Shown here piece after piece: positions 15,561 to 57,312 of a DNA stretch of 64,000 nucleotides. Origin of the DNA: Fistulifera solaris (Eukaryota; Bacillariophyta; Bacillariophyceae; Naviculales; Stauroneidaceae); contig AP026145.1 of the NCBI GenBank assembly GCA_030295235.1, forward strand, positions 64,501 through 128,500, read 5' to 3'. Position numbers and translations under genes: made by a program. Numbering within the stretch: the first letter of the stretch is position 1; each line of letters starts with the position of its first letter. The notes beneath the pieces are model-generated. The model had not been told where the DNA came from and searched no databases. It worked only from the letters and a program-made list of their open reading frames with translations.

Positions 15561-15616
15561 AAAGTATTAGACGGGATGCTGTTAATCCAATTTGTCTTTC
15601 TACAGTAGTAATATAG

Positions 15617-23570: not shown

Positions 23571-24238
23571 CAGACAGAGAAAAAGTAATAGCGCTCATTT
23601 TTTTTATCCGAAAGAATTTTTTTGTGTGGCTCTTCGATCGTATGTGCGTCGCGCGGAAAGTGGTAAATAGTACACATTTGTTACATTCACTATAGAATGA
23701 AGTGTTGAGTAATCCACGATTGCATTTCAGTCACGCGTCATCATTTTTTCGATACGGATTGCTACTTAGCATTCGTTCCTTTTCAAAGTAAAATAAGCTA
23801 CAGTTGTCATTTTTGCGGCAAAAAATATCCTCAGATGCTTTTACCTTGCACGCCGTCTTGCTTTATGTCGAAACAGTTTGCAAATTGTTGTCTCTACGCC
23901 CGAAGTGTTTTTCGTTATTCGTCACGACTCCATTTCAGTCACGAACCCCTGTTTTCGCGCTATTCACTGTTTCCAATCCTTGTATAGTCTAGGCACATTC
24001 TTTCATTACACCACGTAAAATCTATGAATAGCTTGCTTACTTTAACTTTATATGGAGTAATGTTTTATGTTCGCGTTAGCCTGCAAAACGGTGTCCGACT
24101 TTATACGGACACCTAAGAATTGGGAAATATGATAGTGCGGCATGGACCGACTAAAGAACATGTCATGGCAATGAATAACAAAGGCGGCGTCGACATCTTT
24201 CTTCTCTTTCGTCTCAAGCGACAAATTTTTTAACGACT
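23571..24238. other. intergenic, upstream of prmA
   Basis: A 668-bp region carrying the prmA 5' flank and the 3' flank of TBL-like copy B. Its main content is the paired palindromes listed separately (23713-23945). An ORF of 62 codons inside has no support. Confidence 0.5.
23713..23945. repeat. paired dispersed palindromes, 208 bp apart
   Basis: Two inverted-repeat cores, CCACGATTGCATTTCAGTCA (23713) and CACGACTCCATTTCAGTCAC (23923), with the motif AAGTGTT 10-20 bp upstream of each. The same arrangement occurs at 43421-43677 and 57060-57312. Confidence 0.6.
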
Positions 24239-25415
24239 TCAGATGATGGTGTAACCGGTAAACAGGCTGTACAAAACCAGATTTACTTCATCATCCGGAA
24301 TTCCTGGCATGCAGGGATGACCGTCCGGTGGTTTGGTGATCCAAGGGTTGTCTGCTCCAAAATATACGCCGATGTCTCGACGCTGCAGCGCTATTAATAT
24401 TTGAAGCCACGATTCCACCCCTATTTCTTGTTTCGCCTGCACTCCATCGGGAAGTATATTTTCAGGTTTCTCCAAACCTATATTCCAGACGAGTGCGTTG
24501 AAAATTACCTTTTTCGACGTCGATGATGCGTGGTTATTCCTGGTGAGTTGAAAATAGTCCGAATAGATTCGATTTAAGGCATCGGCACTAAAATCATTAG
24601 GACGAAACACATAGTAGACTTCCACCAACTCCCGAAAGCGAACCATGGCAACGCTGTCGTTGCAGCCATCAATGGTTTCGTCCGGTACTTGGGATACACC
24701 GGCGTGATAATAGTCGGCCAAATTGTTTTTGGAGACACCGTGACATCTTCTTTTTGTATCCAATCCTTGCTTCGAATCGGTTTGCCGAGTTCTGAAAACT
24801 CAACGAGAGTATAATTGCGTCGTGCCATTGCTGACAAGGAGACATCGGGACCGGGTTGCTTCACCAGTAGTTGAGTGATGTCTTTCCGGAAACCACATGC
24901 CATCGCTTCCCACATTTGTCGAACATAGGATGATCCGTGTAACGCAATGCGTGTTGGCGAGTTGTCGACGGTGTCAGTCGTTGGAGTGGGGCGTGTTGAT
25001 AGACCTGCAGGACCGCCCAAAGCATCGACGAGACTCCTTAACCGACACGGTTTCGTATTGTTATCATGCCCCAAGTTCAAGACAAGTTCGTAATCCGAAG
25101 CCTCTGGTTTGTCGTAATCAAGTGGATGAGCACAATTGTAACGAGCTTTCATGACGAAACAAGAATAATGATCGTAACGCGGTTGTGTGCCGGGTAGAAC
25201 AGGGAGATACGAACCCATGTTCTTCAGATCAATGATTCCTGTTTTCGAAAGGCACTCGGGAAAATTCGCTCGAATAAAGTCAATCGAAGATTGAGGTGTT
25301 GTGTCGTCATCTTCCTTCTCAATGTCATCAATGGAAATTGCTGCCTTTATTTTTGTAGGAAACCGCTTTTTCGTCGTCTTGGTAGGCACAGAATAAACTA
25401 CTGTCGTTGGCGACG

Positions 25416-25455
<40 letters not shown>

Positions 25456-25656
25456 GAAATCGTCATCCCATATTTTAAGCTTCGTATCACTGTGTCTATC
25501 CTGTTTTTGTTGAATGTTTGTTTGAACCGGCATGAGATGTTGCCATTGCTGTACAGAGATTTGCGATAAACCGAGACACAGGCACGAAAACAACATCGCC
25601 CATTTCCATTTGCTCTGCGAAAAAGAATTCCGTATCGACGATAATGATGCATGCAT
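24239..25656 (-). CDS. TBL/PC-esterase-like type II membrane protein, copy B, one frame change
   Basis: Paralogue of the gene at 20009. ATG at 25656, N-terminal membrane anchor (WAMLFSCLCLGLSQISV), then a stem that contains a run of more than a dozen Asp encoded by a GAT repeat. The luminal domain begins TTPQSSIDFIRANFPECLS and is nearly identical to copy A for about 110 residues, then less similar. It has HGSSYVRQMWEAMAC and the C-terminal PDGHPCMPGIPDDEVNLVLY, so it shares the GSS substitution and DGH spacing. The frame shifts near 24748; one extra A in the AAAAA run restores WIQKRRCHGVSKNNLADYYH. A role in modifying secreted polysaccharide is inferred from the family. Confidence 0.7.
25417..25455. 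repeat. ATC/GAT trinucleotide microsatellite
   Basis: About 13 uninterrupted TCA/ATC units coding poly-Asp in the stem of TBL-like copy B on the minus strand. Copy A lacks it. Likely length-variable. Confidence 0.9.
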
Positions 25657-26193
25657 TGTCGATTGTCAGCATTATTAGCGAAGAATAACAACTCTATTGG
25701 CTTTTTTAATTACGACAAGTGAAAGGGGAATAGAGTCGACAATACTGGTACTGTACTGGTACCTGCAACGATAGCAATAAACATGAAGAGAAGTGTGAGA
25801 GGATAAACGGAGTATGATTTATGATTTTTCCTCCACATTTGTTTTGCGAAAGAACCACTCGTGACTGTAATGCTACTTTGTTCAGTCACAGTCAAGCCCA
25901 ACGGACATTTCAACGGAAAGTCGCAAGATGTAGTGTCACTCGAGCAGAGAGAAGAGTGTTGTCGCACAATAACCCGTGACCCAAGTGGGCGGGAACAATT
26001 GCCGATGTCTCAGCATGACGTGGCAATTCGTTACGTCATTCATGTCGGCGTTTGTCCTATCACAAAACACGAAACAGAATGAATGCTGGGAGCACCATAA
26101 ATCCTTTTACCAGGTAAATAATTATTATTCATAGTCCTATAAACGACAATTCCTGTTGCAATTCACAAACTCCATAGAGGCCCTCAAGCGAAT
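25657..26193. other. divergent promoter region between TBL-like copy B and Mpv17-like gene
   Basis: A 537-bp spacer between divergently transcribed genes. Contains a GTAC-rich near-palindromic stretch (TACTGGTACTGTACTGGTAC, 25745-25764). An 85-codon minus ORF crosses it with no family support. Confidence 0.5.
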
Positions 26194-27009
26194 ATGCGAC
26201 AACAATATCAATTCCTCGCGCTGCTAGTTACGCTCATGCTCTGCACCCTGACGAGAGCGTTTTTACCTTTCCCATGGACGCGTCATCGGCGAAATAGCAT
26301 TCAACGATTCGCCGACTCGAAAACGACGTTTCTGGAGCGCTTATCTCATAATTTAAAAACCACTTCGACAACCAAAGACGATACTTTTGTCAGTACAAAT
26401 CAAATACAATCAACAACCAAAGCATCGTCGTCTTACGTTCAATTCGCTCAAACCTATCCCTTTGCCAACAATATACTCATTGCCACCACCAAGACAGCGG
26501 CCGCCGATTTCTTAGCGCAAGTAGTCATTGCGCAAACACCCATTGCCGAGCTGGATCTGCAACGATCGTTCTTGTTTTGTTTGTTCGGAGCGCTCTATTT
26601 GGGAGGATTTCAGTATTTGTATCAGGTACAAATATTCAAGAAACTCTTTGATGTAGATCGGTTTACTCAACAAACGTGGCAAGAGAAGTTACAGGATAGG
26701 GAAGGTTTGCAAGCGTTGGCGGCACAAACTGCTTTGGATTTGACTGTCTTGACTTTGATTTATCTTCCGGCTTTTTACATATTCAAGGCATCCGTTTTCA
26801 GTGGATCCAGCGTTCCTGCGGAATGGTTTGCCAGCGGCATCGACACTTACCAGACAAACTTTGTGAAAGATGAAACGGATTTGATTCGAGTGTGGTTACC
26901 GGCAGATCTCGTATGTTTTTCGGTTCCTCTGTATTTACGGCTTCCCGTTCGACACATTGTAAGCTTTGTTTGGACCGCTTACTTGTCATTTGCTCGAGGT
27001 GGACACTGA
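26194..27009 (+). CDS. Mpv17/PMP22-family membrane protein, probably plastid
   Basis: A single-exon 271-aa protein. N-terminal signal peptide ending LTRAF|LPFPWTRHRR, with the Phe motif and basic/Ser-rich stretch of diatom plastid proteins. The body has the four-helix layout of the Mpv17/PMP22 family, whose members form channels or affect small-solute permeability in mitochondrial, peroxisomal and plastid membranes. It begins YPFANNILIATTKTAAADFLAQ, and the C-terminal signature is VWLPADLVCFSVPLYLRLPVRHIVSFVWTAYLSFARG, matching the family's W-x-P and V-S-F-x-W-x-x-Y-L-S pattern. The exact membrane and substrate are unknown. Confidence 0.85.
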   Translation: MRQQYQFLALLVTLMLCTLTRAFLPFPWTRHRRNSIQRFADSKTTFLERLSHNLKTTSTTKDDTFVSTNQIQSTTKASSSYVQFAQTYPFANNILIATTKTAAADFLAQVVIAQTPIAELDLQRSFLFCLFGALYLGGFQYLYQVQIFKKLFDVDRFTQQTWQEKLQDREGLQALAAQTALDLTVLTLIYLPAFYIFKASVFSGSSVPAEWFASGIDTYQTNFVKDETDLIRVWLPADLVCFSVPLYLRLPVRHIVSFVWTAYLSFARGGH

Positions 27010-27673
27010 AAAGAGGCTGGCTTGTGTTATACGAGCTGCGATAAGTCGAATGAAGCCGCGATCATTGAAATGAAACGTCTTGGCATCGAGTCGAGGAGAG
27101 TGGCGTTCACCTTAGCTCTCTTTCCGTCTTACCGTTACTGCTCTGCCTACATGTTTATGTGGAACACCTAAATAATGACCAACGCACACTTTTGTCTGTA
27201 CATATAGTTGTGCACTAATTTACCTGATTTTCAAGAAAGCATTACTACAAAACAACTTTTAATTTTTGTTTAGCGCAGACTTTCCGCGAGCGGTATTTTA
27301 ACGATATGTATAGACCATCTTATCTCATCATCATTGTCCGTTGAGATGAAACAGGCTCTTTTGGCGGACCTCAAGAACTCGAACGTGTAAGCGCAACCAT
27401 GCACCCTGCCATCCAAATAACAATTATCACACGTCGAGAAAGCTCTGTTTATTCAAAACGTTGAACGTGTTTACAATCACTGCACCTCTTGAACTCGTTA
27501 TCTCGACTTGCAAGCTCGTCAAAGGTTACATTGGACGTTGAAAAGCCTAGAAAATAAAGCAAGACGCGAGCACTTTCGGCAACTGAAGTGAAAGTAAAAC
27601 ACGTTCTTGAATTTTGAATTATTTTCCTTCTGCATTCGTTCCTCAACGAATCGACTCAACACTCAACAAAAGA
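27010..27673. other. intergenic, upstream of CYFT-family gene 1
   Basis: A 664-bp region between two plus-strand genes. No supported ORF, RNA gene or repeat seen. Confidence 0.5.
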
Positions 27674-30198
27674 ATGGGAAACTCTCCAAGTAGTAGTGGA
27701 AAACGCGGAAAGAAGGGTAGCAGGTCTTCTGCAGGTACTTCTGTGGAGGAGGTTGCCGCTCGAGCGCAACAAGTTGCCGCCGATTTGCATGCGGGCATTC
27801 GCAATGGGCTGAAAAATCTGGAGGAGAATGATCATCCGGCCGCTCAAATGATTGATCAAATGTGCGGGCCGTATTTAGATCCTCATTCGTCCAATTCACG
27901 TCGTCGACGACCAGTTTACGAATCGTCATCGGAAGAGGAATCGGAGTTAGATTCACGTGCCGTTTCGGAAGATGAAACAACTTTGACCAATGATTATAAA
28001 CAGCGAAAAAATCGACGACCGCGAGGAAGGCACGAAACAGAAACGTTAGAGTCAGCATCGTATATATCACAGTCCGAATATGATGAAAGTACTTATGCTG
28101 ACAGGACGAAAGATTCAAGGCAGACAAAGTCCGAAATCGACGATCAACCCCGCCGTGGAAATCCCTCCAGTGCAATGCAGCAACCACTTGCCAGCTCGTT
28201 TGCCAAGAGATGTTATTTTACGAAATCTGGTATTGGGTCTTCAACGCAGCACTACGAAGGATTAACACTCACCGGCAATGTTGTCTTGATGTTAGCTGGC
28301 GCGATGAAACTGAAAGGTTGCCCGACCATTTGTGATGAAGATTTGAGACGAGTCGAACAAACATACCCAAATCAATTTTCAAGGTTACCTGATGAGTTGC
28401 TTCTCAGTAGCGGGTGGAGGAGAATTAGCAAGTATTGTCATTTTTCGGGTAAACCTATTCCGGACGGTGTTCCCTTTTTCGTGAGTTATATCTGCGCAGA
28501 GTTTGCTCTGCTTTGTTGCCATCTCCTTACTTACACTTTTCGTGTCCGGGTGCTGGATAGATTCGACAAAAGGCTACACCCCTCTGGAGGATATTATTTT
28601 CTCTTGGCTTCTGCTGTAGGTATGATCCGGCCGGACGACGTCGAACCTTTGAATCGGGATACTCTTGTGTTGCTCGAAACCGACTACCCTGCTGCTTGCG
28701 ATGCTGCACCAGCTGCTTTGATTCAAGATCCCTCAGAATGGACGTTGGTCGATAGGTTTTGTTTCTTCTCGGGCGGGCCGATCAATGCCGATGAAGATGT
28801 GTATTATCAAGCCGACTTTGATGGAAGTCTCATCTTTATGCTTGCTTTTCTATCGCCTTCATTGACTGCTGAAGAGCTCTACAAGTTAGACGCTCCCATT
28901 GATGAAAGCCTTCAGACAGTTGAAATGGTAGAGCATGTTGAGTCGATTTACGACCTCACCGAAAGAGATTTTGAAGATCTTAAGTTATATCACCTTGGAC
29001 CGTGTCGAGCATTGTGAGTTCATCTGTCTATTAGCTACATCGTCTCTGCTTTTTTTGCTCACGGTCTCTCGATGTTGTTTTTTACAGGCCGCCATTCCTG
29101 CTACAGCCTCATGCATGGAGCAAGGTTTTACCCCCACACTTTTTAAAAGCAAAGCAAATTGCATTACAACGTGCTGCTGATTTTGAGTCGTATATGCGCC
29201 AGACATCAGGTCGACCTGCCTCTCCGTATGATGAGTTTGCCAGTGACTCTCGAGAACAACCCTTTTCAACTATTGCGGAATCTTCGCCCCTTGCACAAAT
29301 AGAGTTCAACGATGAGAAACTTTACAATTCGGAGACTAAAAACGTACATCACGGACATGATGCAGTAAGATACGATGTACCACCGCCTCCCCCATTGCCG
29401 AGCAAACATGCCGCGGGAGCGTATTTACCACACGGTCCTCCAAGTCCGCCCGAATCTACAGACATAGCGGATCATTATCACAATTCACAGACGATGGATG
29501 ATCGACGGGTTGAAATGCATGAATATGACAACTCAGCAGTTCCAATGGATGAAGCCCTTGACGGCCTCGGTGCTCGTGTCCGTGGATTTGATCCTCCTGA
29601 AGACGAGCCCCCAAGTCTGAAAAAGAATGATGTAACTGGACTGGGCCACATTGACACTCAATATTATGTAACTCCAATGGACGAGGAACCGAGATCTCCT
29701 GTCACTGACGATTTTGCGAGCCCGGTTTCGATGGAAACGTATGACGAACACATCCCCAGTCCTGATATAGGTCGTCCTCCCAAGAAGTCAGAAATCGACA
29801 GGTCCAAATCGACATCTCCTGCAATGCGAGGCGCCCAAGAAATGCTAAAAAGAAATCGACAACGAAGGTCTTTGGAAACAGCGAAGAGGCAAGAAAGAGA
29901 AAGTAGGAAAGAAACTATTATACCTGAAAAGCCGAATGACGCGTTTGGAACTAATGCACGTTTTGAAACGCCGAAAAGTCCCGAGTCGGGAACAACATGG
30001 GAAACGGGGTCGGATGGGACTTCTATGGATGGTTCGACTTGGACGGATGACAACAATCCAGACCGCAGTTCGCGAAGGGCCCTCATTCTACAAATGGCGA
30101 AAGCTCGCATGAGAAACAACCAACAGCTCCAATATTCGCCCGAAGATGGGTCGCCGACAGCAGAGTCGCGAGAGATGGAAGAAGAGAAGAAAAAATGA
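27674..30198 (+). CDS. CYFT/CFFSG-family protein 1, N-myristoylation signal (unrecognised family)
   Basis: Exons 27674-29013 and 29088-30198, with a 74-nt intron (GTGAGT...TTACAG) whose removal gives CRAL|PPFLLQPHAWSKV; about 816 aa. The ATG at 27674 gives MGNSPSSSGKRGKK, which fits an N-myristoylation site with a basic patch, so membrane attachment is likely. After a Ser/Glu-rich region there are three similar modules: RCYFTKSG with a hydrophobic helix VVLMLAGAMKL, YCHFSGKPIPDGVPFF, and RFCFFSGGPINADEDVYY. The C-terminal half is disordered, with PPPPPLPS and Arg/Lys-rich helices. An 80-nt candidate intron (GTGAGT at 28481 to GATAG at 28560) lies in module two; removing it breaks the frame unless a T-run length is wrong. 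No known domain was recognised. Paralogue at 32094. Confidence 0.65.
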
Positions 30199-31172
30199 TA
30201 TTGGTCAACCGGATGACATTGATCTTACTGGAGACTTGGATTGATCTAATGATTGGACTATAATCTATGATGACACCATGCTGGTTGCCGGATCCCAGAC
30301 ACAAGCAGCGTGGGCCGATGTTCTGTGTTGCACGGGGTGAACTTTACAACGCATTTATGTGACGAAGCAACTCTGCCGGTCGACGAAAATGAACTGAACG
30401 TGTTTCAGATGCTTATGTAACAAAAATTTAATAATAAAGAGCGTCTTATTGAGTCTTATTGAACGTATCATCGTCATGAGACAATCCTTAATTGTCCTTT
30501 ACGTAGCCATTGCTGGCGACCTATCGGCACGAAAGAACCGACGTTGGAGAATCATCCACCAGCCGCCCTTTATTCTATGTGTATTTACCTCCCTTTATTC
30601 TTTTATGGCCGGTTCAGGTGACATAGATGGTCAAGATAACAGTGCCGGTTATTAATCTGCTTCATTCGAATTGAGAGCAACCTGGACTAACTGGCTTCGA
30701 TTCCAACTATTGTTTTACAAAGAGACTTGACGGACCACAGAGGAGACCTGTTCACCTTGAAGCATCACAGGTGTAAAACAGACGCATTAACATCAAAATC
30801 CCCTTAGTCATTTATGTAGAGACAGCGAGAAAACCAGGGAAAATCTATCTGATTTATACTTGTACATATTCATCCATAGCGCATGATTTTTTTGTGAGTT
30901 GATCAGTACCGGACGACCCTTCTTCTCTTTCTCGCGTTCCGTTTCATGACCACCATCAACCATCACCATCACTTTCTCACTTTTTGCTCTCTCTGCATTC
31001 TCTCCCGAAAACGTACCAGTACGGAGAAATGCGCCATCAACTTCTAAGAAAAGAGAATTGCTTGCGCCAAATCAAACCATACCTCAGAAATCATATGTTC
31101 ATATCATGGTTGCTGAACAAAAGGACAAACCATGAAGCTTGTCAGAAAAACTTCTTTTCTGTGGGCGCTTTT
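30199..31172. other. intergenic, ~1 kb
   Basis: A 974-bp spacer between two plus-strand genes. Has an imperfect CACCATCA run near 30950-30975. Short ORFs here lack support; one open frame runs into the next gene's first exon, so the true start of that gene may lie upstream. Confidence 0.5.
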
Positions 31173-31865
31173 ATGTTTACGTCGCGGAATAGCACCTCCC
31201 CGCCATCATTGAAAGTAAGTGTGTTGTGGTCGCTCATGGTCCATCCATTCTTTTTTCTCTGCTCTTTCTTACATGGAAACGCATTGCTTCCTAATTTTCT
31301 CTAGATAGGAAGTATCGATGACGACCTTACTGAATTCAACGTAGGCGAAGGTAACACGGATGAGACCGACAGCTTGAATGTAATTCACATTAGGGACACC
31401 TCGGGCACCTTGGATGGTGTATCGAATAATCCTACAAATACAGCGGGGTCTAAATTTTACATGTTTTCGATTCTAGCACCGGGATGCGCATCACAGGGCG
31501 ATCCGGTAGTTCAATTGGATACGTCTTACGATCAAGACGGTCATTGGACACGAAGCGACAGTGTGGAGTTGCACCTCGCAGTACAAGCGTGGGAGCGCAC
31601 CGTCTACGACCTTCATCAAAATCAATCGCAATTCGCCCTGTGTCTTCAAGCTGATATTGTCATTCTCAACAGTAAACTCGAGACGGTGCTACTTGAGCAG
31701 AAAAAGTTTGAGTTTGTTGTCACCATTCTTCTTCCTACTTTTGATTTCGACGAACCTGATTTAGCCGATAACGGACAGTTTGTACTTCAGCTTCCTTGTG
31801 TCGGAAATAGAAGAAGAAAACCACGAGGTTTTAAAGTACATTCATCAGTTGTTGTTGCTCTCTAA
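31173..31865 (+). CDS. small hypothetical protein, two exons
   Basis: Exon 1 31173-31214 (MFTSRNSTSPPSLK), a 90-nt GTAAGT...CTCTAG intron, exon 2 31305-31865; about 200 aa. The frame of exon 1 is open further upstream with in-frame ATGs, so the start is uncertain. The sequence is beta-strand-rich (SKFYMFSILAPGC, ELHLAVQAWERTVYD, FEFVVTILLPTFDF), compatible with a C2-like or other beta-sandwich fold, but no family was recognised. It lies between the two CYFT-family paralogues. Confidence 0.5.
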
Positions 31866-32093
31866 CGAATAGTGGGGGTCATTCGATCAATCGCTCTTCG
31901 CCACTGTCGAATGGAGCAAATCCTCAATCAAGCGCTTGCTGGTCAAACGTGTAAAACGGTTTATCATTCTATTCATTACAGCTAATTCTTGTTACAATCA
32001 TTCATGTTTTGAACCTTCGGGTAATTACTCTCTATCTCTCAAAAAGGTGCGTCTTTTTTCTTAAAAGTGAAACATCAAATATTTCTAGCCAGT

Positions 32094-34988: not shown

Positions 34989-35295
34989 GATTTCTTTTAA
35001 ATGGTTCAGCACAATTCGAAAACTTGTATCACGAAACACAGAAGCTCGCAATCGAGACACGTCGCCGCGGTTGGTGCAAACAAGCCCGGTTTCCCTTTCC
35101 AGTACGACTTACAGAGCCACTTTAGAAACTAGATAGCAATGAGCAAGCAGGAGAACGTCACAAAAAGGGATGGGCGACGGATATCTCTGATTTACACTTC
35201 ACTTTGACGGTGTCGATCATCTTCTGGGTGTGTTTTTCTTTTGGTTCTGAAATCCGGACGGAAACTCGGTACTGATTGACGTGACTTTGCTTGTC

Positions 35296-35440
35296 CAGAA
35301 AATCTGGACCAACTTTTTGCGTCTCCAGAAAATCTGGACCAACTTTTTCGAGGTCCAGAATGTCTGGACATGTACCAGGTGTGTTGGCCCTTCCGACGGA
35401 AATTCTGTATGTCGTGTCTTTCAATTGTCCAGAAAATGTG
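35296..35440. repeat. CCAGA-N3-TCTGG palindrome array
   Basis: Two copies of TCCAGAAAATCTGGACCAAC about 32 bp apart (35296 and 35328), then GTCCAGAATGTCTGGACATG (35353) and a degenerate GTCCAGAAAATGTGGAAACG (35427). Each core is a 13-bp near-perfect palindrome of the same form as the satellite's CCAGAATTTCTGG. Diverged TTCTG repeats continue to about 35500. Confidence 0.7.
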
Positions 35441-35622
35441 GAAACGCATTATAAATATTCTGACGGAATTTCTGTATGTCTTTTACTTGTTCTGGACACG
35501 CATTTGGGTCATCAGACGGAAGCTCTGTAATCCAAACACTTCGAACTAACCCGTGGCTTGCAAAATGCGAAGGTAAGCTGTACTTGGGCTCAAATTATGG
35601 CTTGAACTGATTTATAATTTTT

Positions 35623-35648
35623 CTTCATGACTGAAATGCAGTCGTGGA
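35623..35648. repeat. dispersed intergenic palindrome, single copy
   Basis: CATGACTGAAATGCAGTCGT, whose reverse strand reads ACGACTGCATTTCAGTCATG, one of the best matches to the window-wide consensus CAYGACTGSATTTCAGTCAY. Confidence 0.6.
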
Positions 35649-36615
35649 AAAACGTTGTCTACAATGTTGTACTATCGTTGAAATTAAGGCCCATGACATG
35701 CCACGTCCTTTCGACCAAGTTTCGACAAAATGAATTATTTTTTGTCTAAGAAATGACATGTGCCTGTTGGTAGTATCGTTGCAGGATCGAATGATTCATT
35801 ACATTATTATTAAGAATTAGATGTTGATGTTGCCCTGACTAATTCCAATTTTTCTATTCCTTACCATTTTCCATTCTTTTCCATTCAAGTAATTTCATTT
35901 GTAGCTCGTACATGGGACAGGGCTTTCTGCTCTAGTTGATTGAAAGTCACCTATTTTCGCTACATTCGAAAAAGGAGGAGGAGGAGTCGTCCAACGAGCC
36001 CTTTGACCCAAGAACGTGCTTTCGTCTTACCTCTAGAGTACTGGTACTGTACCGGTCCGGTAGCTAGAGAGTAAACTTGGAATAAAGACAAGCTTCGCAC
36101 CGGTACGGTACTTTGTCTCCTCTAGTCTAGCTAGGAATTTTCCTGTCGAAAAGACTCGCCGAAAACAAGACCGGAAGACGCCGAGACGCGGAGAGGATTT
36201 TTGCGAAATTTTTCGAAACTTTCGTGGATGGCCGGAGTGACTGGTACTCCAAAGTACTTATTGGTGGAGTGTCGTTGGGGAGGTGTCAACGGGAAAGTGG
36301 TGGCCCCGCGCCGCGAAAAAATGCGAACAAACGGATCGAAATGAAACAGGACACGACCCGTACATATTATGCGATAGCCAATGAATTCGGTACTGCTTGT
36401 TTCGATAAAGATACACACACAAAAAGCAGTCTTGCGTTTTTTGCATGCAAGTCCGAAATTTCTCCCCCCAAACGTTTGCTAACGCGCAGCTCCAGAAAGA
36501 AAAACACATCATTGTTATTATTTGTAATTCTTATAGTCGAGAAGCGACGAGCGGAAAGGGAACTATCAAAAGAACGTTATTATTTGTTTTGATTTGACTG
36601 CCGTTTGACTGAATA

Positions 36616-42018: not shown

Positions 42019-42300
42019 TGTCTAATAGCGAGCCACTATACTACTATGCAACCTACATCGGGATATAGATCGAATTGACAGAATGCTTGTTATGAAAAAG
42101 TTTAATACGTACATGAGCAACTTAACCAAGGACGGATGTCAAGTATGATTCAGTTGTTGACTGCTACTACATCGCCAGCAGAAACATGTGAGACGTTTGA
42201 ACAAACATCGTTGTTTGAAACTTCTCTTCCGTCATATATTCTTCTATTCAATCGGAAAAGAGAGATGAAATAAGCGCTTGACACGTACCTAGTTGGCGCT

Positions 42301-43045: not shown

Positions 43046-44089
43046 TCGCTGTAAGCTTTGTTTAACTTTTGTTTGCTTTCCTTTTGATTTTATGACGGAA
43101 AGAAAAGCAAGGAAAATGATGAGCTCATTGACAAGTGACAAGAGAAAGCCTTGGTCCTGCTTATTGGTTGTTGGTTGTTTGTTTGTTGCGGAGTAATGTT
43201 GCCTCCTGCAGAAAGCAGATAAGCTTCTGACTTCTGATAGCACGGATTGTCTACATTTTGAGTCAGTATTCTTGGTCGCGTGTTCAAAACGACGATGACG
43301 TATTTCAGAAACAATGTAATTACTACTAGAAAAGGTTTCTGCTTTGATAAGACAAAAATCCGTCCTCTTGTTCGTCGAACATTCTCTATCTGACTATACT
43401 GATAAGTGTAAGTAAACTTTACCACGATTGGATTTCAGTCACGTTTTTGTGTAAATATAATAACGACGATCAAGGCAAACGAATTAGCCAACAAACGAAA
43501 ATCGCATTTTTGTTGCATTAACTTTTGAAAACTAACTATACGTAGCAATTTCGTTTGGAACGCGACAATCCGACCTTTCGCGTCGAAATGCTGCTGGATA
43601 GCCATGTGTCTCGATCACTATAGCCTCAAAGTGTTGGTTTACGGCCCGAGACCCATGACTGGATTTCATTCATGATCCCGCACTATTAGCAACGACGAGC
43701 ACAATAAAAGCGCGACGATGAGAGCTTTTTTTTTTTTTTAAACACAAAACTCAAACGCTTATCGTTGCTTGTTTATGTTATTTATTGTGTTCTTCATTAT
43801 GCAATCCGTTACCTGTTGATCTTGTGGAAATCAGACGCCCGACTTTTGGGGCATAAGTTTGGCCGAATAGACGGAATGCAACATATCATAATATCAAGTG
43901 TTTCGAATTTCCGACAACGTCGTCAACGAAGGTCATGTTTCGCGGTTTGCAGTTCAAAATCTTATCACATTATCCTTTCAAACTTTTCATGATGTTTCAT
44001 GTTTTTGTTCTGTCTTGTGTGTCGTCCAGGATTTTCAAGATTGTTCTCATTTCTTGGGCGATGCGAAGGAATTATTCTATTTTGCAACC
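43046..44089. other. divergent promoter region, TPR-like gene and chitin synthase
   Basis: A 1,044-bp spacer between divergent genes. Carries the paired palindromes at 43421-43677 and a T13 run near 43727-43739. No supported gene. Confidence 0.5.
43421..43677. repeat. paired dispersed palindromes, 232 bp apart
   Basis: Cores CCACGATTGGATTTCAGTCA (43422) and CCATGACTGGATTTCATTCA (43653), each preceded at 15-25 bp by AAGTGTA or AAGTGTT. Same layout as at 23713-23945 and 57060-57312. Confidence 0.6.
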
Positions 44090-47758: not shown

Positions 47759-47940
47759 CAGTTGATCATGTATCATAGTTCGAACGTCAAGTTTCTTCAA
47801 CAGGTGCATCGTAGTAGACTTTTGCAAACGAGACATGAATCAAAATGACTTTTTCTTTTTAGTTTCATTATCATTTACATTAGCCTACTGTGCAAAATAT
47901 ACCAAAAATAGTGTTTAGGAACCGATCGACCATACATGCT

Positions 47941-48774
47941 TCAAGCGGCCGACGCGGCTGCGATATCCTTGGGAATCTCGTAGGCTCCCTCCTCTTCATC
48001 GATCTCGCAAAAGTAAGAGTACTCAGTCATGATCTGGTTGGAGAGCTCGACAGCGACAGCTTGTAATCCGAGAACTGTTGCGGTTCTCTCGATGCAGCAC
48101 AATACAAAAACGTGCAACGACGAGACCTGCGACCTCAAAGAATCATCGTAGATGCCGTTGAATAGCATTCTCTCCAGTAAAATCGCATTCTGTCCCCATA
48201 TTTCTAGTGCTTTGTCAGCAAGTTGTAATTCGTTTGGCTGCTGTTCCCAGGCGCATATGAAGGCGCTTGCTAGATTGTTGAGTATAATTGACTCAAAAAC
48301 TGCGCAATGGGTTGGCGATCTTTCGGCACGTGAAATGGGCGATTCGGCAAATCTGAGAAAAATGAGGTTGAAAGAAGTAGAATTCAACAATATGATTTGA
48401 TCGACTTCATTGCGCAAAGCAGTTGTGAGCGACTCGTGGGGCATATCTCGTCGAGAAATGCGCAGGCATGTATGGCAATCGTCTCTTCTTTGTTCCTGAA
48501 GGCTAACAAAGTCTTTCCAACAGGCAAGAAACTGATTCGCCCTATCCATCATCAGATGGACACTCTCTGGTGAATGAAGGCACTGAAGAAGGCTCAGCGA
48601 GTCACAGAAAGCCGCAATGGCAAGCTCATGACAATCATGACGGACGAGAGAAAGTCCGATGTTATTCAAGGCAAGAGCCGCGGCAACATTCGACTCGGCT
48701 GTCATCTTTTGTAATCCGCTCAAATGAGTGAATGCAGGAAGGAACAAACGGCTCGAGAATTGTGAGTGCTTCAT
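47941..48774 (-). CDS. TPR-like family protein, paralogue B
   Basis: A single-exon 277-aa protein, ATG at 48774; an internal start at MTAESNVAAALALNNIG is possible. TPR-like pairs include ALNNIGLSLVRHDCHELAIA and IILNNLASAFICAWEQQP. The acidic C-terminus is CEIDEEEGAYEI. Paralogue of the gene at 42301; both are minus-strand and flank the plus-strand chitin synthase. The 3' ends of this gene and chitin synthase are only about 180 bp apart, facing each other. Role unknown. Confidence 0.65.
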   Translation of the reverse strand: MKHSQFSSRLFLPAFTHLSGLQKMTAESNVAAALALNNIGLSLVRHDCHELAIAAFCDSLSLLQCLHSPESVHLMMDRANQFLACWKDFVSLQEQRRDDCHTCLRISRRDMPHESLTTALRNEVDQIILLNSTSFNLIFLRFAESPISRAERSPTHCAVFESIILNNLASAFICAWEQQPNELQLADKALEIWGQNAILLERMLFNGIYDDSLRSQVSSLHVFVLCCIERTATVLGLQAVAVELSNQIMTEYSYFCEIDEEEGAYEIPKDIAAASAA

Positions 48775-49639
48775 GTCTGCCGTTGATATTATTAGTAGGC
48801 TAACAATTTGCTGCTTTTAAACCATGATGTCGAAAATGCGAACAGTGCTTCATCGATTTCATCAATAAAGTTGCCAATGCGAACAGTTCGGTCGGCGGCT
48901 CAGCCGGCGGCCAAGTCATTCCACGACAGCTCTCCATAGTAAATGCGAACACTGCCGTTTAGCATTCCGAAAGGAGACATTTACTATTTACTAGAGAGGA
49001 CACATTCTTCATCATGTATAATGTATAGTCCATAAAGTATGGGGCACGATGCGGTTTCTGTCTACGTGTTTCCTTGCGCCAATAATCGTACAGTATTCGG
49101 AGTTTGGATACCGCTGACCCGCTGACCGCTGAGTGCAAGTACGAACGTGAAGCACGCTACGTAAAGAAAACGTCTTCGAAAACTCCCGAAAGAAGAAAAT
49201 GACGTCATGACTCATGACCAAAACTTTCATGACGATGATGATTATTCTAAGGACACATTTTTATACGTTCTAAATAATGAGGCGTGATTCTTTGGGAGTC
49301 AATCGCGCTGACTGTAGAACGAGCTGTAAGAAACTCACCTGTTCTGTATTGCAATCCAACAAGACTTTGAACACCTTGATGCAATACGACGGGGATAAAT
49401 AGATTACTCACAATTTTCCGTCTTCATATACCTTCGACAAGTTTTTCGATGAGATAGTGACTTTTAGTATCTCTATGCGACAAAACATAACTCTGATTTG
49501 ATCGTCTTGGTGCAAGCATGTGCTTTATCAATAGCTGAGTCGTCCAAGACATCGGTCTTCTTCTAACACTCGGTAGCTATTTCGCAAACTGACAATGTTA
49601 CGGTCAATCTATCTTTAGTTTTATTCTATTATGCTCACA
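48775..49639. other. intergenic, 865 bp
   Basis: A spacer between two minus-strand genes, including a weak relative of the dispersed palindrome (CTCATGACCAAAACTTTCAT, 49211-49230). No supported ORF or RNA gene. Confidence 0.45.
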
Positions 49640-50893
49640 CTAACAAGCCAAAACAACTATCAGCCACGAAACCAAAGTACAACTTAGCACATAGTTCCAG
49701 ATCGTGGCATCGGAAGATAGAAAGACCGGCGACAAGGCAATCGGTCCTTCCACAAAGAAAGAATTCTCTGCCGTTGGTGCTTGACTCTCTACAATAACAG
49801 GCGCCTCTGTGCGCTTAACAGGCGGGGCGACGGGTCGTGTTGGCTCTTCTTTCAGCGGGGTCGGTGAGGATGTCGGTGACCGTGATGGCTTCGGCGATTG
49901 CAGTTGACTCTGTTCCTGCGAAGGACTATCCGTCTCTGCTGCCGTTTGAGCCAGAGTGGGTTCCCCAGTGGGTGGCGGCGTTTCCGATGGCGTCGTAGGA
50001 GGAGAGGTCTGGGGGGCTGCAGTTGGAGTGCGAGTGGGAGAAAGTGTGGGAGCAGGCACCGGGGCATCTGTTGGAGGAGGTGTGGGTTCAAAAGTCGGTA
50101 CAATAGCTGGGACGGGTGCCGCTGTCGGCATAAAAGTAGCATCTCCCTGATTGAAAAAGGCCAAGGCTTCCGATTGAAAATTATTTAGTTCCGTATCAAA
50201 GCAATTGTAGCCAAAGTAGGGGTAGAAATTGGGACAGGAGAATGATTGGCGTGCACCGCCATCACAGTCGAGACAAGCCACTTGACAGCTTTCTCCATCC
50301 ACAAACAACTCTTGAGGACATTGCACGTAGCAATACGGTTGACTTCCGAATGTCGTCCAGTCCGCATTGCTATCACACGGCTGTACCGACTGCACCGAGA
50401 GCAATGTCTTTTGACTGTATTTTTCGGGCGCCGTAAACACTTCGCTCGATTCTACCGACGTCAAAATACTGCCACTTACAAAATTGAACGAAAGAGTAGT
50501 TGTGGAGCAATATGCGCCGTCTTGCAGTATAGTAGAAGAATCCGGGAAGAAGTAATTGACCCGATCGTTGGGATTGTTGTAACATCGCGGTCGTGTTTCT
50601 TCCAAACGAATAACCCATCGGTTTGTCAAATCACCGCCGCATTGAATCAAAGTACTTGGAGAAGTCGTTTTGCAGTACATAGAAAGTGAGCATGTACTAC
50701 TGAGGCTCACTAACTCTTCAAAAGAACATCCTCCGATTGCTTCCAAGTGCCGTCGATGATGATGAGCGTATTGTAGCGACGATTCCACGAAATCGTCTTC
50801 AGCATAACTGTAACTGCTACTATAACTTATAGAAGTAGGATCGATAGCATTCGCCCATGACAGTAACAGGGAAAAGGAAAGAAAGGATCTCAT
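49640..50893 (-). CDS. secreted Cys-rich protein with Pro/Thr stalk and probable GPI anchor
   Basis: The ATG at 50893 gives a signal peptide (MRSFLSFSLLLSWANA) and 417 aa. The N-terminal ~240 residues have at least 16 cysteines in several pairs (CSFEELVSLSSTCSLSMYC, CYVQCPQELFVDGESCQVAC), so a disulphide-bonded ectodomain is expected. A ~110-residue stalk of PT/PTP repeats follows (for example PTPPPTDAPVPAPTLSPTR), typical of diatom surface glycoproteins and probably O-glycosylated. The C-terminus is a hydrophobic tail (WNYVLSCTLVSWLIVVLAC) without a following charge, fitting a GPI-attachment signal. No enzyme domain was recognised. A wall or cell-surface structural role is inferred. Confidence 0.75.
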   Translation of the reverse strand: MRSFLSFSLLLSWANAIDPTSISYSSSYSYAEDDFVESSLQYAHHHRRHLEAIGGCSFEELVSLSSTCSLSMYCKTTSPSTLIQCGGDLTNRWVIRLEETRPRCYNNPNDRVNYFFPDSSTILQDGAYCSTTTLSFNFVSGSILTSVESSEVFTAPEKYSQKTLLSVQSVQPCDSNADWTTFGSQPYCYVQCPQELFVDGESCQVACLDCDGGARQSFSCPNFYPYFGYNCFDTELNNFQSEALAFFNQGDATFMPTAAPVPAIVPTFEPTPPPTDAPVPAPTLSPTRTPTAAPQTSPPTTPSETPPPTGEPTLAQTAAETDSPSQEQSQLQSPKPSRSPTSSPTPLKEEPTRPVAPPVKRTEAPVIVESQAPTAENSFFVEGPIALSPVFLSSDATIWNYVLSCTLVSWLIVVLAC

Positions 50894-51322
50894 GATTGTA
50901 TTCAAGACAGTTAGAAGCCTTTTGTGTGATTGCCACGACAAGCGAAAACAAATGCGACGCAAAAACAAAACGAGCGGAAAAAACGAGGCGTTGCTCGGAA
51001 GCGCACAGCCACGAAACTACACTTTCTCCTCCACTTCACTCTCACAGTCGTACGAAATGAGAAACAAGAATCAAATGTTGTTTTGTATTACTATACAACA
51101 GCCGTATCAGATTCTCTACTTAGGCTACAGATTCCATTAATCGGACATGGAATTTGGAATCCAGGATCCAAAATCCACCAAAATAATGGCTCAACTCAAG
51201 TAAGTCGTGTGACTTTAGTCCCTAATTATTTCCTCACACTTGGTCACTTTTTGGAAGGGAAAAGATTCTGAAACACCAATTGCCAACGAAGCATCACGGA
51301 TCGAGCATAAGATACCCTGAAA
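50894..51322. other. divergent promoter region
   Basis: A 429-bp spacer between the minus GPI-type gene and the plus rhodanese-like gene. Overlapping short ORFs have no support. Confidence 0.5.
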
Positions 51323-52052
51323 ATGAATCTCTCAAGTCACTCGAATAATAGCCAAAAGCATAGATGGCGCAAATATTCATTAGTTCTATTCATCTATCAT
51401 CACCATGTTCTCTTCAATCCACAAATCACGTTCAAAGGGCTGTTCCTCATCATCGTCGCGCACTTGCTGTGTGTTCCTTTCAAGGCAGAAATAACGATTC
51501 TTTCGTCAGTAGCTTTTCGACAGGGCATTGAATCGTTTGATCTCATTATTGATGCGCGATCGACACGAGAATATGCCAACGGGCACATTGAAAACGCCAT
51601 ATTGGTACCGGAACTCGGTTTGCGCGAAAATCAAGTGAATGCCGAACAACTGGCGACAGCCATGGAACGTCTCGCGGGTTGCCGCTCGTGTCGTGTGGCT
51701 ATATACAGTTCGACCGGACGCAAAGCTATGATTGCGGCAGCAATTAGAATCAATTGGACAGTTTGAGCAGGTGTTCAATGGGTTAGGTATCGACGATTGG
51801 ATGAAAGCCGGCTATCCGCTGGTAACGACGAGACCGATTGCTGCGGCGGCGCGGTGTCTGGGCACTTCCGAGGAATTTTGTTCCGCCAACTCGGACATTC
51901 GCCCCACCGAAAATGATACCGACAACATCGAAATCGCGGAGATTCCTGGAAAGAAGATTGTTCCTCCTTCAGCGGACAAAGATGCTTTGAAATTGTACCC
52001 AGAAGTCAACACGCAAGGCAACGTGCGCCGTCAGAAGCGCGTCCGTGGTTGA
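51323..52052 (+). CDS. secreted rhodanese-like protein A lacking catalytic Cys, one frame change
   Basis: A hydrophobic leader (GLFLIIVAHLLCVPFKA) precedes a rhodanese domain: FDLIIDARSTREYANGHIEN, then the active-site loop VAIYSSTGRKA and LGIDDWMKAGYPLV. In active rhodaneses the loop reads C-R-x-G-x-R; here the Cys position is Ser, so sulphur transfer is not expected. The C-terminus is basic (RRQKRVRG). The frame changes near 51738; removing one G of a GG pair joins KAMIA to QQLESIGQFEQVFNGLG and gives the same length as the neighbour. ATG at 51323; about 55 residues precede the rhodanese core. It is a tandem paralogue of the gene at 52653. Confidence 0.7.
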
Positions 52053-52652
52053 ACGCATCGGGCGCGTTGCGTCGTCGATAGTGCTTAGTGATTCATTGTG
52101 AACGATTAGTAAAAATGAAAAAGTGAGATGATTCTTGAGTAGCAGCTTCTAAAGACAGTTGGCATCTTTCTTTTACACGGAGTAGAATGCTTTCGTTGAC
52201 ACGGTCTATCTCCGAAGAAGAGTCTTCTCCGAAAGATATCACGAAAGATACCTCGCACCTCGCGTGCCGCGAAAATTTCAAAAAGCGTGTTCAATAAGTC
52301 TTAACCTTGCTTGCGACTCCGTTGAGTTTTCGCGCCACTCGAATTCATCGTCAACGGAAATGCGAATGTCACGTAAGTCAACAGCTATTTTGATACTAAT
52401 ATGGATACATAGACAACGGGAACGTGTGTCGCGTACACTGTACTATCAAATGATTGGCATCTACGAACAAAAGAACATTTCTCGAAAGCCAGCCGTTGTT
52501 GCCACAAATGATGGCATTGCTCGACATGTCATGCCCAAAAATAGCTTTGATCCTTTCGAAAACAAAAGATTGGCGCATAATAACGAATCAACTGGCAAAG
52601 AAACACTGCAGGCAGCATTGCCATTGTTTCAAACGCAGCAAATCACAGTAGA
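52053..52652. other. intergenic between the two rhodanese-like genes
   Basis: A 600-bp spacer. A 130-codon plus ORF (52264-52656) overlaps the start of the next gene in another frame and shows no family features. Nothing else seen. Confidence 0.45.
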
Positions 52653-53336
52653 ATGAACTCTTTTGCGCTCGTTTTCTTTTTGAGTCAATACGTCCTTTCG
52701 ACGCAAGCTGTTATACGCGTCTTGACATCCCAAACGTTCTTTCGCGGCATTGAAGACGGTCGTTTCGATGTCATTGGAGATGTTCGATCGGCGGAAGACT
52801 ATAATCGAGAACACATTGCCAATGTGACGCATTTAGAACTCTTGCACTTGGCGGGGAGACCCAATCAGAAAGCGACTCCACAAGATTTGGAGGGATGCGA
52901 GTTTTGTCACATTGTTCTTTATTCTACGGACGGCAACCGAGCACAAGAGGCATTGCAGATATTAGAAGACGCTGGCTTTAAGAATCTATACAATGGCTTG
53001 GGTGCAGTGCAATGGGCTGCTGCGGGTTTTCCGTTGGTGACAAGGTCCGACAATGTCGTGCCACCGTGCACCACTAGTCGTAGAGTTAGTGCCCAATGTG
53101 AAGAGAGACATCAGGCCAACAATCCTACGGCTCCAGCTCCTGTCAGAGCACCTACTCCTACCGTACGGCCGCCCGCACCGGCAACGGCTCCGGTGCGGCC
53201 ACCATCGCCTCCAGTTGTACCCGTCAAGAAAGTGGTGCCAAAAGATCCGCTCAAAGATGCTCTCAAGATCGCTAGCGCAACGGATATTAGCCGAGGAAGT
53301 TTAAATCGTCGACGAGTACGTGGTGATCAGGACTAA
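52653..53336 (+). CDS. secreted rhodanese-like protein B lacking catalytic Cys
   Basis: An intact 227-aa protein from the ATG at 52653. Signal peptide MNSFALVFFLSQYVLSTQA, then a single rhodanese domain (FDVIGDVRSAEDYNREHIAN, loop VLYSTDGNRAQEA, LGAVQWAAAGFPLV). The loop has Ser where catalytic rhodaneses have Cys. A Pro/Ala-rich hinge (PAPVRAPTPTVRPPAPATAP) leads to a basic C-terminus (SLNRRRVRG) shared with paralogue A, where the same DALK...RR-x-RVRG pattern ends the protein. Such inactive domains usually bind anions or proteins. Secretion, Ser substitution and the shared tail in both copies argue that the altered form is selected, not decayed. Confidence 0.75.
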   Translation: MNSFALVFFLSQYVLSTQAVIRVLTSQTFFRGIEDGRFDVIGDVRSAEDYNREHIANVTHLELLHLAGRPNQKATPQDLEGCEFCHIVLYSTDGNRAQEALQILEDAGFKNLYNGLGAVQWAAAGFPLVTRSDNVVPPCTTSRRVSAQCEERHQANNPTAPAPVRAPTPTVRPPAPATAPVRPPSPPVVPVKKVVPKDPLKDALKIASATDISRGSLNRRRVRGDQD

Positions 53337-53631
53337 ATAATGAGACCACTGGAGTCGCACGAGTGCTCTGTGCTTATTGGACAAGCATCGAGTTAAACAA
53401 TTGTTCTTGTTAAATTACATAATGCACTTTTATAGCGTTGCATAAGCCTGCTCTAGCGCTATATAGGCCTGCGCATGTGCTCTGTTGTACTAATGCGCTC
53501 GTGCATCGTTTCGTGTGGTTGCTGCGTACTACACTTTAATTACCGAATCAGCACGTCTCGTATAGTTTCTCTAGTTTCAGCAGTCGGAAAGAACGCACAA
53601 AATTGTTGTTATATTACTTTAGCTTTCTTGT

Positions 53632-54115
53632 CTACAAAAAGTGGAGTCCACTGACAATGGTTTGATTTACACGCGGTGCATACAAAGTGCGAGGTCGAGG
53701 TGAAACGACCTTCTCGGATGACCCTGCCGACGAGGAATGCGTCGATGCGCAGCTTTTCCGAGGCGGCGGTGGCAACTTGTGTAGTTGCTGCTGTACTTGT
53801 GGTTGTTGCAATTGTTGCTGTTGTTTGTGTCTTGCTTGTAGCATGCGCTGCAAAGGCTCTTGGGCAATCTTTAGCTGTTTCTGAAATGAAAGAGGGCCCT
53901 TTTGTCGGTCGAACGGTGACAAGATCGATGCAGAAGAAGAGAACGAGGCTTCCGACAACACGGAAGATGATGAGTCATCTCCCACTAACATCAATTTTGG
54001 TAACGCTTGACGCAATTCACTGGTAAGTCGGCGTTTTTGTGGCGATGTGTAGCAGGGGGGAAACGATTGGAGAGTTTGTCGCGTCCAGCCAATGTTGATT
54101 GGATGTAGGAGTCAT
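53632..54115 (-). CDS. small low-complexity hypothetical protein, possible frame change
   Basis: The open frame from about 54105 reads INIGWTRQTLQSFPPCYTSP, then TSELRQALPKLMLVGDDSSS, a Ser-rich part, a Gln-rich helix (HKQQQQLQQPQVQQQLHKLP) and a basic end (SPRPRTLYAPRVNQ). No in-frame ATG exists, but one C fewer in the C6 run near 54060 would link it to an ATG at 54115 (MTPTSNQHW). The mixture of a short structured part and low-complexity tail is plausible but unrecognised. A plus-strand ORF covers the same bases, so the call is tentative. Confidence 0.4.
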
Positions 54116-55117
54116 CGTATGTTTGCTATTGAACACCTCTGGTTTTTGTTTGTATGTTACGCTTGCTGCTGCTTGTTCAAGAACTGAGTTGCATTTAATT
54201 AATGAACTCAGGGAGGGCTGCATTTATCCTCGTGTGAGAGGGAAGTGTGAATTGTGAAGTGTGAAATGATGGGGCTGAAATGAACGGCATGGTTTGTCGT
54301 TTGAACTTTGGGAGTAACGAGCCTACACAAATTCGTAGTGTACATTCTTGTGGAACCGATTTAATTGTACGAAGAACTTGAAGTCGAATCGTCAATGTGA
54401 AATGTTCTGTGCTAGATCTTGAGATTCGGAAACTACTCAAAAGTGTATACTCGAAATAGTTTGCGAAATTTCCCCCACCCCCACCCCCACCCCCCCCCCC
54501 CCACCTTACCTTTTTTTTTCGAAATTCGAACTCCTTCACCTTTTGACAAACATTAACAGGACTACTCTTTACCACAGAGAAAACACAAGACACGGTTCTT
54601 GGAATTCTACTCCGCTCCGTGCCCTTTAATCAAACAAGATAAGCCCGGTGTCCAGCGGTAACCGGTCAAGGTACAGGTAGAAGCAGAGTGGTCTTGGTTA
54701 TATACGGAGAAAAAGTGTCAGATACGTTGTTTGGGTCGTGATTTCTAATTTAGTTCTTTTTATTGGCTCATGAGAATGTCAGTAGTTACCCAGCGGGATT
54801 CGCTACTGCACGGTCATTTTTCTTATTTCAGACACTCCCGACTGAAAAAGGGGGAGATTTTCGCGCCAGCCGTCCTCCAACGTCAGAGTCGTGTCTGAGT
54901 CACACGTGCCCTTTTTCATGCGGTTCCTTTCTCTCTGCAAACATTCCCGCGTGTTTGTATCCCGTGTTTGAATGAATCGTGCCGTTTGAGAGCCGTTTGA
55001 CCTCATCCTTTTTCGCTTTTGCTATTATCAGCGCAACACGAACGACAGTGCGGCAGTTCATTTCATTTCGCTCTCTTATCATTGTTTTATTATTTTCTTT
55101 TGTATCTGTAAGCGAAG
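54116..55117. other. intergenic, 1 kb, with C-rich tract
   Basis: Upstream flank of the GH72 gene. Contains the homopurine/homopyrimidine tract listed separately. ORFs through the poly-Gly/C tract are not supported. Confidence 0.5.
54471..54503. repeat. C-rich tract, G-quadruplex-capable on the minus strand
   Basis: Runs of five C separated by single A, then a run of fourteen C, followed within 10 bp by a T9 run. The complementary strand has four or more G5 runs, the classic requirement for a G-quadruplex. The exact length in the data is unreliable, given the other homopolymer problems. Confidence 0.85.
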
Positions 55118-56768
55118 ATGACACGTCTAAAGCTAGCTTGTTGGTGGCTTTGTGCACTTTCATCATTCTCTTATTCACTCGGCAACCGCTTGCCTCCTTT
55201 GGAGTTTCTCGGCAATCAATTTTTCAGCTCGGAAACGGGAGAATCCGTGCGATTGAAAGGCGTCGCTTATTATCCGCGACCGAACGCGGGTGAGCTCAAT
55301 GTGAACGGTGTTGATTTCTTTCATGAAGACTATCGTGAGCTGTGGGAAAGAGATATTGCATGGATGAAGAAATTAGGAATCAATGCTGTACGGATATATG
55401 CCGTCGACACTAGCAAAGATCACGATGGTTTTATGTGTGCGATGCAAGAAGCGGGGATTTACGTGCTAGTCGGTCTCTCAGCGACGTGCGACGGCTGCTC
55501 GATTACAATGGACCCCGCACCGGCGTGCTATTCGCCCTCACTGAAAGTGCGCGGTATGCAAGTCATCAATCATTTTTCGAAATACGAAAACGTTCTCGGC
55601 TTCGATGCGACCAACGAAGTGCATTTGAACAGTAACGTCTCTGACACGGGGCCTTGCCAGCGTAAATTTCTCTCCGATATGAAGACTTTTATTGCGGACT
55701 GCGATGCTATGCCTCGTAAAGTCCCCGTGGGCCTGTCCTTTGCGGATCGAGATCGCACTTTGCTAATTGACTATTACAACTGTGAAGAACAGCGCGGTGA
55801 CACTGCCGTTCCAGACTGGTTTGGTCTAAATATCTACTTGGATTGCAATCCTGATCATTTATATGTAAACGAGTCGAAGGCATTTCCTGTTTTGCTTTCT
55901 GATTTCGAGAACTATTCACTTCCCGTTTTGGTAAGTTCCAGAGAGTCCCTTGCTCTTTGCGGGTGCGCAGAATTTACTAATGCTTTCGCGGTTTTCACTT
56001 TTAATTTCTAAAGTTGACGGAATTTGGATGTAATGGACCTCAGTTTCCCACCATTGATGGCTTCGAGGGACAGCGAAACTGGAGAGCCGCAAAATGGTTG
56101 CACGAGGGAGAGTATCAAGAAGCTTTTGTAGGGACGTTTGCGTTTGAATTTTCCACGGAAGCGATATGGGCAAATAGAACTGGCGGTTATTATCCATTTC
56201 AAGTGTATTCGGATGGTGATCATGGTATTGGATATTATCAGCCAGAATTATGCGATCATATAGATGTTCCGTGCGAGTACGTGATGAAGCCTCAGTTTGA
56301 TTTATTAAAGGAACAGTATGCAGCAACGCCGAATTCTGGGGCATTTCAGCGAGCTACCTTTATCCCGAAATCCACGGCCCGAACCGTCTGTCCTCCGGGG
56401 ATCGCGCCCGTCAGTAGTTTTGTTTGGCCGTCGGATGATGAAGCTGGGCCGTATTGTTGGGACCAGTCCGTGGATCCGTGCGGTACAAAGCCTGGAGGTG
56501 ACAACGGTGTTGGAGCGCCAACAGGTACTCCGACTTCGGGAAGGCCGCCTGCTGAAACACCCCAACAGGTCCATCACCGACAGGGAGACCCCCAGCAGGT
56601 TCTCCAACATCAGGGACTTCACCATCAGGTACGCCATCATTAGGAACCACTCCAACATCCACGTTGCCTTCCGATGGTGGTTCTGTGGTCAGTTCTTATG
56701 GGTCTCGTATCATGCTTGCCTACCATTCATTAGCCATAACTATGGGCTTGCTCCAATGTTTGGTGTAA
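55118..56768 (+). CDS. GH72 beta-1,3-glucanosyltransferase (Gas1-like), probable GPI anchor
   Basis: Exons 55118-55930 and 56014-56768 with an 83-nt GTAAGT...CTAAAG intron; about 522 aa. GH72 enzymes cut beta-1,3-glucan and rejoin it to another chain, remodelling walls. A signal peptide (LACWWLCALSSFSYSLG) is followed by GVAYYPRP, GINAVRIYAVD, the acid/base Glu in DATNEVHLN and the nucleophile Glu in LTEFGCN, placed directly after the intron. Trp/Tyr-rich FEFSTEAIWANRTGGYYP follows, then a Cys-containing segment. The frame slips near 56563 in a C4 run; one more C reads PTGPSPTGRPPAGSPTSG, a Pro/Thr stalk, and ends SRIMLAYHSLAITMGLLQCL, a GPI signal. Substrate in a diatom would be callose-like or mixed-linked glucan (inferred). 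Confidence 0.88.
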
Positions 56769-57059
56769 CTATTTTAGGCCTATATCAGCTCTTGCTTTAT
56801 TTCTTTTTATACAACTCCACGCGACGATAGTAAATATGGAAGTCAACGAGTTACAGATCTTTTTGATATCAAGCATCGTGGCGTGCTCTGAACCGCAAAG
56901 GTATTCGTAACCCTCTCGGAAATTATTCAATGTACCCAGGACACAAAACAAGCTTCCCGTAGGAGCCCTAGATGCCGAAGGCGGCTAGTTTATAAATTTC
57001 CGTCTGACTCTGAATGAAAACAACCTTCATACTTCATCCAAAGTGTATCCTCAAATTAT

Positions 57060-57312
57060 CCACGACTGAAAATCGGTCACGAATGCATTTTACTTTGAAC
57101 GACAATGCTACCTACAATTCGTTCATTAGCCCATTTTCATGAGATCCACTTGTCGTTGTTGCAATGAAATAGTCTCTCGCAAGGTTTGAGTTACACCTCT
57201 TGATATTTGTACGAAGAAAATCCTGCGAAACGTTGGCTGTGGTATTTTACTGTCGACCAAAGTGTTGTCAGTATTTCGCCAATTTCGCCAAGACTGCAGT
57301 TCAGTCATGAAT
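57060..57312. repeat. paired dispersed palindromes, 231 bp apart
   Basis: Cores CCACGACTGAAAATCGGTCA (57060) and AGACTGCAGTTCAGTCATGA (57291), each preceded by AAGTGTA or AAGTGTT. It abuts the MITE-like element, which begins 30 bp further on. Confidence 0.6.

Follow-up and report, generated by a model that had tools for sequence, protein, structure and literature searches.

Paired palindromic modules between genes of the diatom Fistulifera solaris: candidate relics of a non-autonomous mobile element

Introduction

When a short palindrome recurs between the genes of a diatom, often in pairs, does it mark a family of elements, and if so, of what kind? We addressed this question in a 64,000-nucleotide stretch of Fistulifera solaris DNA (hereafter the window), for which the original prediction proposed a palindromic core and read the paired sites as one degenerate family. 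Our analysis indicates that the window holds about four worn, non-coding copies of an element between genes, with palindromes ~220 bp apart.

Results

Seven core palindromes exceed chance

Scanning the whole window with a 24-column matrix gave seven strong matches to the core CCACGAYTGSATTTCAGTCAYGAA, with 24-mers starting at 23714, 23922, 43422, 43653, 57060 and 57288 on the plus strand and at 35624 on the minus strand, the last being the top-scoring core in the window (core b of its locus). The IUPAC pattern given earlier, allowing up to three mismatches, found six matches in the window against 0.02 expected. The matrix built from the seven sites scored them at 29.2-36.2 bits, and the highest scores of the same 24-column matrix in simulated windows were 21.0 (60 windows) and 22.7 (100 further windows). 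Because such a matrix favours its own members, we performed a held-out test in which the matrix used for a locus was built without that locus. The seven cores then scored 21.9-34.2, whereas the maxima from 25 simulated windows per matrix were 17.6-20.2, so that every held-out score beats its null maximum. None of the seven cores falls within any of the 32 stop-to-stop ORFs of 200 codons or more, in line with the original prediction, which placed its sites outside the genes that it called.

The remaining two sites of the earlier list are not established. The palindrome placed at 3901 (3902..3925, minus strand) scores 20.4 with one gap, which 3 of 100 simulated windows also attained. The weak ninth site at 49206 is absent from the 30 best gapped matches in the window. 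A further borderline core-like site, absent from the earlier list, lies at 21708..21731 on the minus strand with a gapped score of 21.8 (attained by 1 simulated window in 100). Neither 3902 nor 21708 showed homology to the element interiors, and neither is established as a family member.

Six of the cores are paired within composite end modules

Six of the cores form three same-strand pairs, with spacings of 208, 231 and 228 bp at 23.7, 43 and 57 kb; the 208 bp agrees with what had been reported, and the accompanying values of 232 and 231 bp are corrected to 231 and 228 bp. When seven sites were placed at random on two strands, three pairs at 195-245 bp arose in 0 of 200,000 trials, which upholds the pairing. 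The AAGTGTT or AAGTGTA previously noted upstream of the core also recurs: AAGTGTW stands 8-22 nt before the CACG, CATG or CAAG of the core at six of seven sites, comprising all six paired cores, and is absent before core 35624. Its background rate at arbitrary positions is ~0.3%, and the window as a whole contains 24 occurrences versus 18 expected. By eye, ACT (TCT in 23b) precedes AAGTGT by 7-9 nt in six modules, giving the end-module formula ACT-N7..9-AAGTGTW-N8..22-CACGAYTGSATTTCAGTCAYG. Each such module is ~50-63 bp long, with two per element in direct orientation, and the clear copies (n=3) measure 257-284 bp with an interior of ~165-183 bp. The DNA ahead of AAGTGTW is similar among several modules, the best match being TCACTATAG...AAGTGTTG of 23a and 43b (0 of 300 shuffles). 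Eight of 21 upstream comparisons reached p<0.05, in several cases owing to AAGTGTT itself, and two of the eight were out of register; one of 21 downstream comparisons reached this level. Since the AAGTGTW box of the first unit sits outside the left palindrome, the palindromes do not delimit the element. The description "palindrome-bounded" therefore has to be corrected: both end units contain a palindrome, but the ACT-N7..9-AAGTGTW box lies beyond it on the left and the units are direct rather than inverted. The four loci are as follows.

23689-23945, plus strand: element p23, with both modules and an interior homologous to that of p57 (ACTATAG at 23689; AAGTGTT at 23700-23706; core a at 23714-23737; AAGTGTT at 23903-23909; core b at 23922-23945)
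35624-35854, minus strand: probable element s35, collinear with p23 (core b intact at 35624-35647 and, 207 bp from it, a decayed core a around 35831-35854)
43393-43676, plus strand: element p43, with both modules and an interior without clear homology to the other copies (left, ACTATA at 43393, AAGTGTA at 43404-43410, core a at 43422-43445; right, ACTATAG at 43617, AAGTGTT at 43629-43635, core b at 43653-43676)
57031-57311, plus strand: element p57, with both modules and an interior homologous to that of p23 (AAGTGTA at 57041-57047; core a at 57060-57083; AAGTGTT at 57260-57266; core b at 57288-57311)

We attach next to no credence to the idea that the cores are short palindromes alike by chance. 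Perfect stems of at least 7 bp are indeed common here (37 outside the tandem array versus 28 in whole simulated windows), and chance may account for 3901 and 49206, but it is countered by the held-out scores, the spacing, the AAGTGTW box and the interior homology described below. For the seven strong sites it is refuted by the pattern count, the matrix scores, the pair placement and the held-out test.

Two interiors are homologous, and probably a third

Comparison of the p23 and p57 interiors gave a local score of 63 versus 21.9 +/- 3.7 in shuffles (0 of 300), and BLAST aligned the two from core to core at 62% across 266 columns, with E 2e-7. The match does not extend into the outer flanks (p 0.66 on the left and 0.28 on the right), and the alignment does not look coding-like, as its gap lengths do not come in threes. 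A self-BLAST at E 1e-3, with hits in 15.0-17.7 kb left out, returned this pair as the only dispersed repeat outside genes; besides it there were only a tandem duplication of 1.55 kb and a pair of paralogous genes. The duplication, at 9903-13010 (9903-11457 and 11457-13010), is 99.8% identical and thus either recent or an assembly matter. Paralogous gene segments at 20008-21076 and 24238-25303 are 76% identical, with a PrmA-like gene and p23 between them.

Some similarity was also seen in inverted orientation. Both p23 and p57 contain a near-palindromic stretch (ACGGATTGCTACTTAGCATTCGT in p23) at 23753-23778 and 57098-57125, where they match in reverse too, and the p23 comparison with the reverse of p57 scores 35 in this stretch, above 300 of 300 shuffles. 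Matches of p43 to the reverse of p23 (p 0.023) and of p57 (p 0.04) are weak among several comparisons. A partial inverted match near 56887-56811 gave E 0.0042 with a profile of the p23 and p57 interiors and 0.0033 with a three-copy full profile, dropping to E 0.3 with a profile of three interiors.

The single core at 35624 probably belongs to a fourth pair that has decayed, judging from its alignment with p23. The DNA upstream of this core matches the p23 interior (18 versus 10.6 +/- 1.6, 0 of 300 shuffles), and alignment over the full length puts the decayed first core 207 bp off (z 3.8); with both modules kept, the match gives z 2.6 and p 0.0075. Taken by itself, decayed core a is not significant (p 0.15), nor is the upstream DNA against p57 (p 0.55), for which the full-length alignment gives p 0.050 and the comparison with modules kept p 0.08.

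The 43-kb pair behaves differently. Before the modules were held fixed, p43 appeared related to p23 (p 0.003) and p57 (p 0.013), and a three-copy profile matched it at E 0.0015. With both modules fixed, its interior gave p 0.35 against p23, 0.38 against p57 and 0.13 against s35, and interior-only comparison gave p 0.45 against p23 and 0.053 against p57. We therefore see no clear interior homology of p43 to the other copies, the early signal having vanished once both modules were kept. The notion of one degenerate ~260-bp family thus holds for p23, p57 and probably s35, whose interiors align, but p43 shares end modules only; likewise, the shared interior words proposed earlier are real for the 23.7- and 57-kb pairs, homologous over their full length, but were not demonstrated for the 43-kb pair. 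The main difficulty for a mobile-element reading is p43, which may represent either related elements with different interiors on the same end sites or modules under selection.

Conserved sites, tandem relics and structural RNA as alternatives

The retention of both modules and their spacing in p43, around an interior that matches no other copy, speaks for a paired binding-site module. Such a conserved chromosomal module would consist of two composite sites (ACT...AAGTGTW...palindrome) ~220 bp apart with a changeable, loosely constrained spacer, bound by a not yet described dimeric DNA-binding protein or recombinase on half-sites like CAGTC[AG][CT]G, with a conceivable regulatory, insulating or origin-like role. 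Core b of s35 fits the consensus despite its worn surroundings, and the seven cores align without gaps with 12 of 24 columns invariant, although likeness among the cores is how they were found. This explanation is further weakened by the p23 and p57 copies being alike across the interior, a likeness that spaced sites alone do not need, and by inconsistent orientation to neighbouring ORFs, as two of the four loci face the next ORF's start and two an end. Conservation of core versus interior did not differ clearly (Fisher p 0.10-0.52, six comparisons), and gapped alignment of unrelated interiors also reaches 74%, no lower than for related ones. On balance we regard a binding-site module as a real but rather improbable alternative.

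The direct repetition of end modules at near-constant distance could instead reflect relics of tandem repeats or local segmental duplications, each place retaining one period of a ~210-230-bp unit together with the next module, and other tandem families with palindromes do occur in the window. If so, the DNA after core b should resemble the interior after core a; 0 of 9 such comparisons fell below p 0.05 (the lowest, 0.05, being p23 with itself). A tandem satellite is thus not supported, as the DNA after core b does not repeat that interior, and we consider this origin unlikely.

A third possibility, that the loci are small structural-RNA genes with a hairpin GACTG-NATTT-CAGTC on the element strand, seems to us very unlikely. 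On that strand 33 of 35 stem cells pair compared with 30 of 35 on the other, via three G-U pairs, and RNAalifold on p23 and p57 gives 27 pairs, five of them changed on both sides, a figure that comes without a control. Within the core stem, however, no pair is changed on both sides, and full-length folding did not clearly outdo that of shuffles (z 0.57, -1.67 and -1.30; equalled by 139, 14 and 18 of 200). Rfam returned no match in the window at gathering score. When the 23.7- and 57-kb loci were searched by E-value, the former had three weak snoRNA matches (E 0.38-1.8, far below gathering) and the latter none. The structural-RNA module entertained in the original prediction accordingly finds no clear support in folding energy, pair counts or Rfam.

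Several other repeats and genes lie in the surroundings. A MITE-like unit of ~540 bp occupies 57342-57880, 30 bp right of core 57b, with AAGACCCAGGTCCGCGAA...TCAGGGTA on the left and the inverted form on the right. A satellite-like array at 15616-17554 has nested periods of 103, 270 and 373 bp, its units bearing the palindrome TTCCAGAATTTCTGGAA, and short arrays with similar CCAGA/TCTGG palindromes occur at 35286-35369 and 5730-5841. At 60712-60739 there is a perfect hairpin with an 11-bp stem, CTGATCTCTCTAGCTAGAGAGAGATCAG, the longest stem among the matches listed outside the array. The window's ORFs include a chitin synthase, a family-72 glucanosyltransferase and a PrmA-type methyltransferase whose leader ends in TEAFQ, a set that points to a diatom in view of the features of diatom plastid leaders.

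Discussion

The window contains paired modules in excess over chance, on both strands, with two and probably three homologous interiors. Together they make up a dispersed non-coding family, degenerate and low in copy number, whose members, on our reading of the sequence, are most likely what is left of a non-autonomous mobile element, a view that we hold with about even confidence. It draws on homologous copies with unrelated flanks, their presence on both strands, the decay of one half of a pair, their non-coding character and the lack of a fixed orientation to ORFs. Of the natures proposed originally, an old non-autonomous element fits best. Their mobility, the enzyme behind it and the part played by the palindromes are our inference: the palindromic modules would be end sites once bound by a transposase or recombinase, which may have been supplied by another element. 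Several observations count against mobile-element relics. The p43 locus keeps its modules without interior homology, a pattern not expected from the decay of a single element. Candidate target duplications, sought as words shared between the two flanks, are inconsistent between loci (7 nt at p23, 8 nt of A/T only at p57, none at p43 and 9 nt at s35), and random flanks share an average of 1.4 six-mers. No shared inverted termini were found, the inverted arms differing between loci (among the matches listed, the five longest at three of the four loci), and a Pfam scan of 20 ORFs in the window found no transposase that could mark an autonomous partner.

In the way they work, MITEs and miniature direct-terminal-repeat elements come closest, and we claim membership of neither. 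Like MITEs, p23, p57 and probably s35 (p43 in its end modules alone) are short, non-coding, dispersed, degenerate and located between genes; unlike them, their end modules are direct repeats each with a palindrome, and inverted termini are not shared. TRIMs and retrozymes resemble them in having two direct repeats that flank a short non-coding interior, but the repeat unit here, at ~50-63 bp, is shorter than the usual TRIM repeat. With respect to the retrozyme hammerhead, Rfam gave no ribozyme match in the window, and CTGANGA is present in only one of eight element strands (interior of p23, minus). SINEs are of the same length class and likewise dispersed but differ in carrying an A/B-box pair, which the elements here lack: RNA polymerase III A and B boxes 20-70 nt apart with at most two mismatches each to the general consensus were found in none of the eight strands of the four elements. 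SINEs are reported in few diatoms (PMC8147415).

A literature search at the level of titles found no description of such an element. Among viral contigs, two (L001 and L002) were hit once each by pattern scans, which we judged to be chance after reading 1001 and 400 bases, and a scan of genome contigs gave no match; as these collections are viral and prokaryotic, they say little on the spread of the family.

If this is a true family, palindromic end modules in direct orientation would imply an unusual transposition or recombination enzyme or a two-site DNA-binding module, and either outcome would concern a little-studied algal group.
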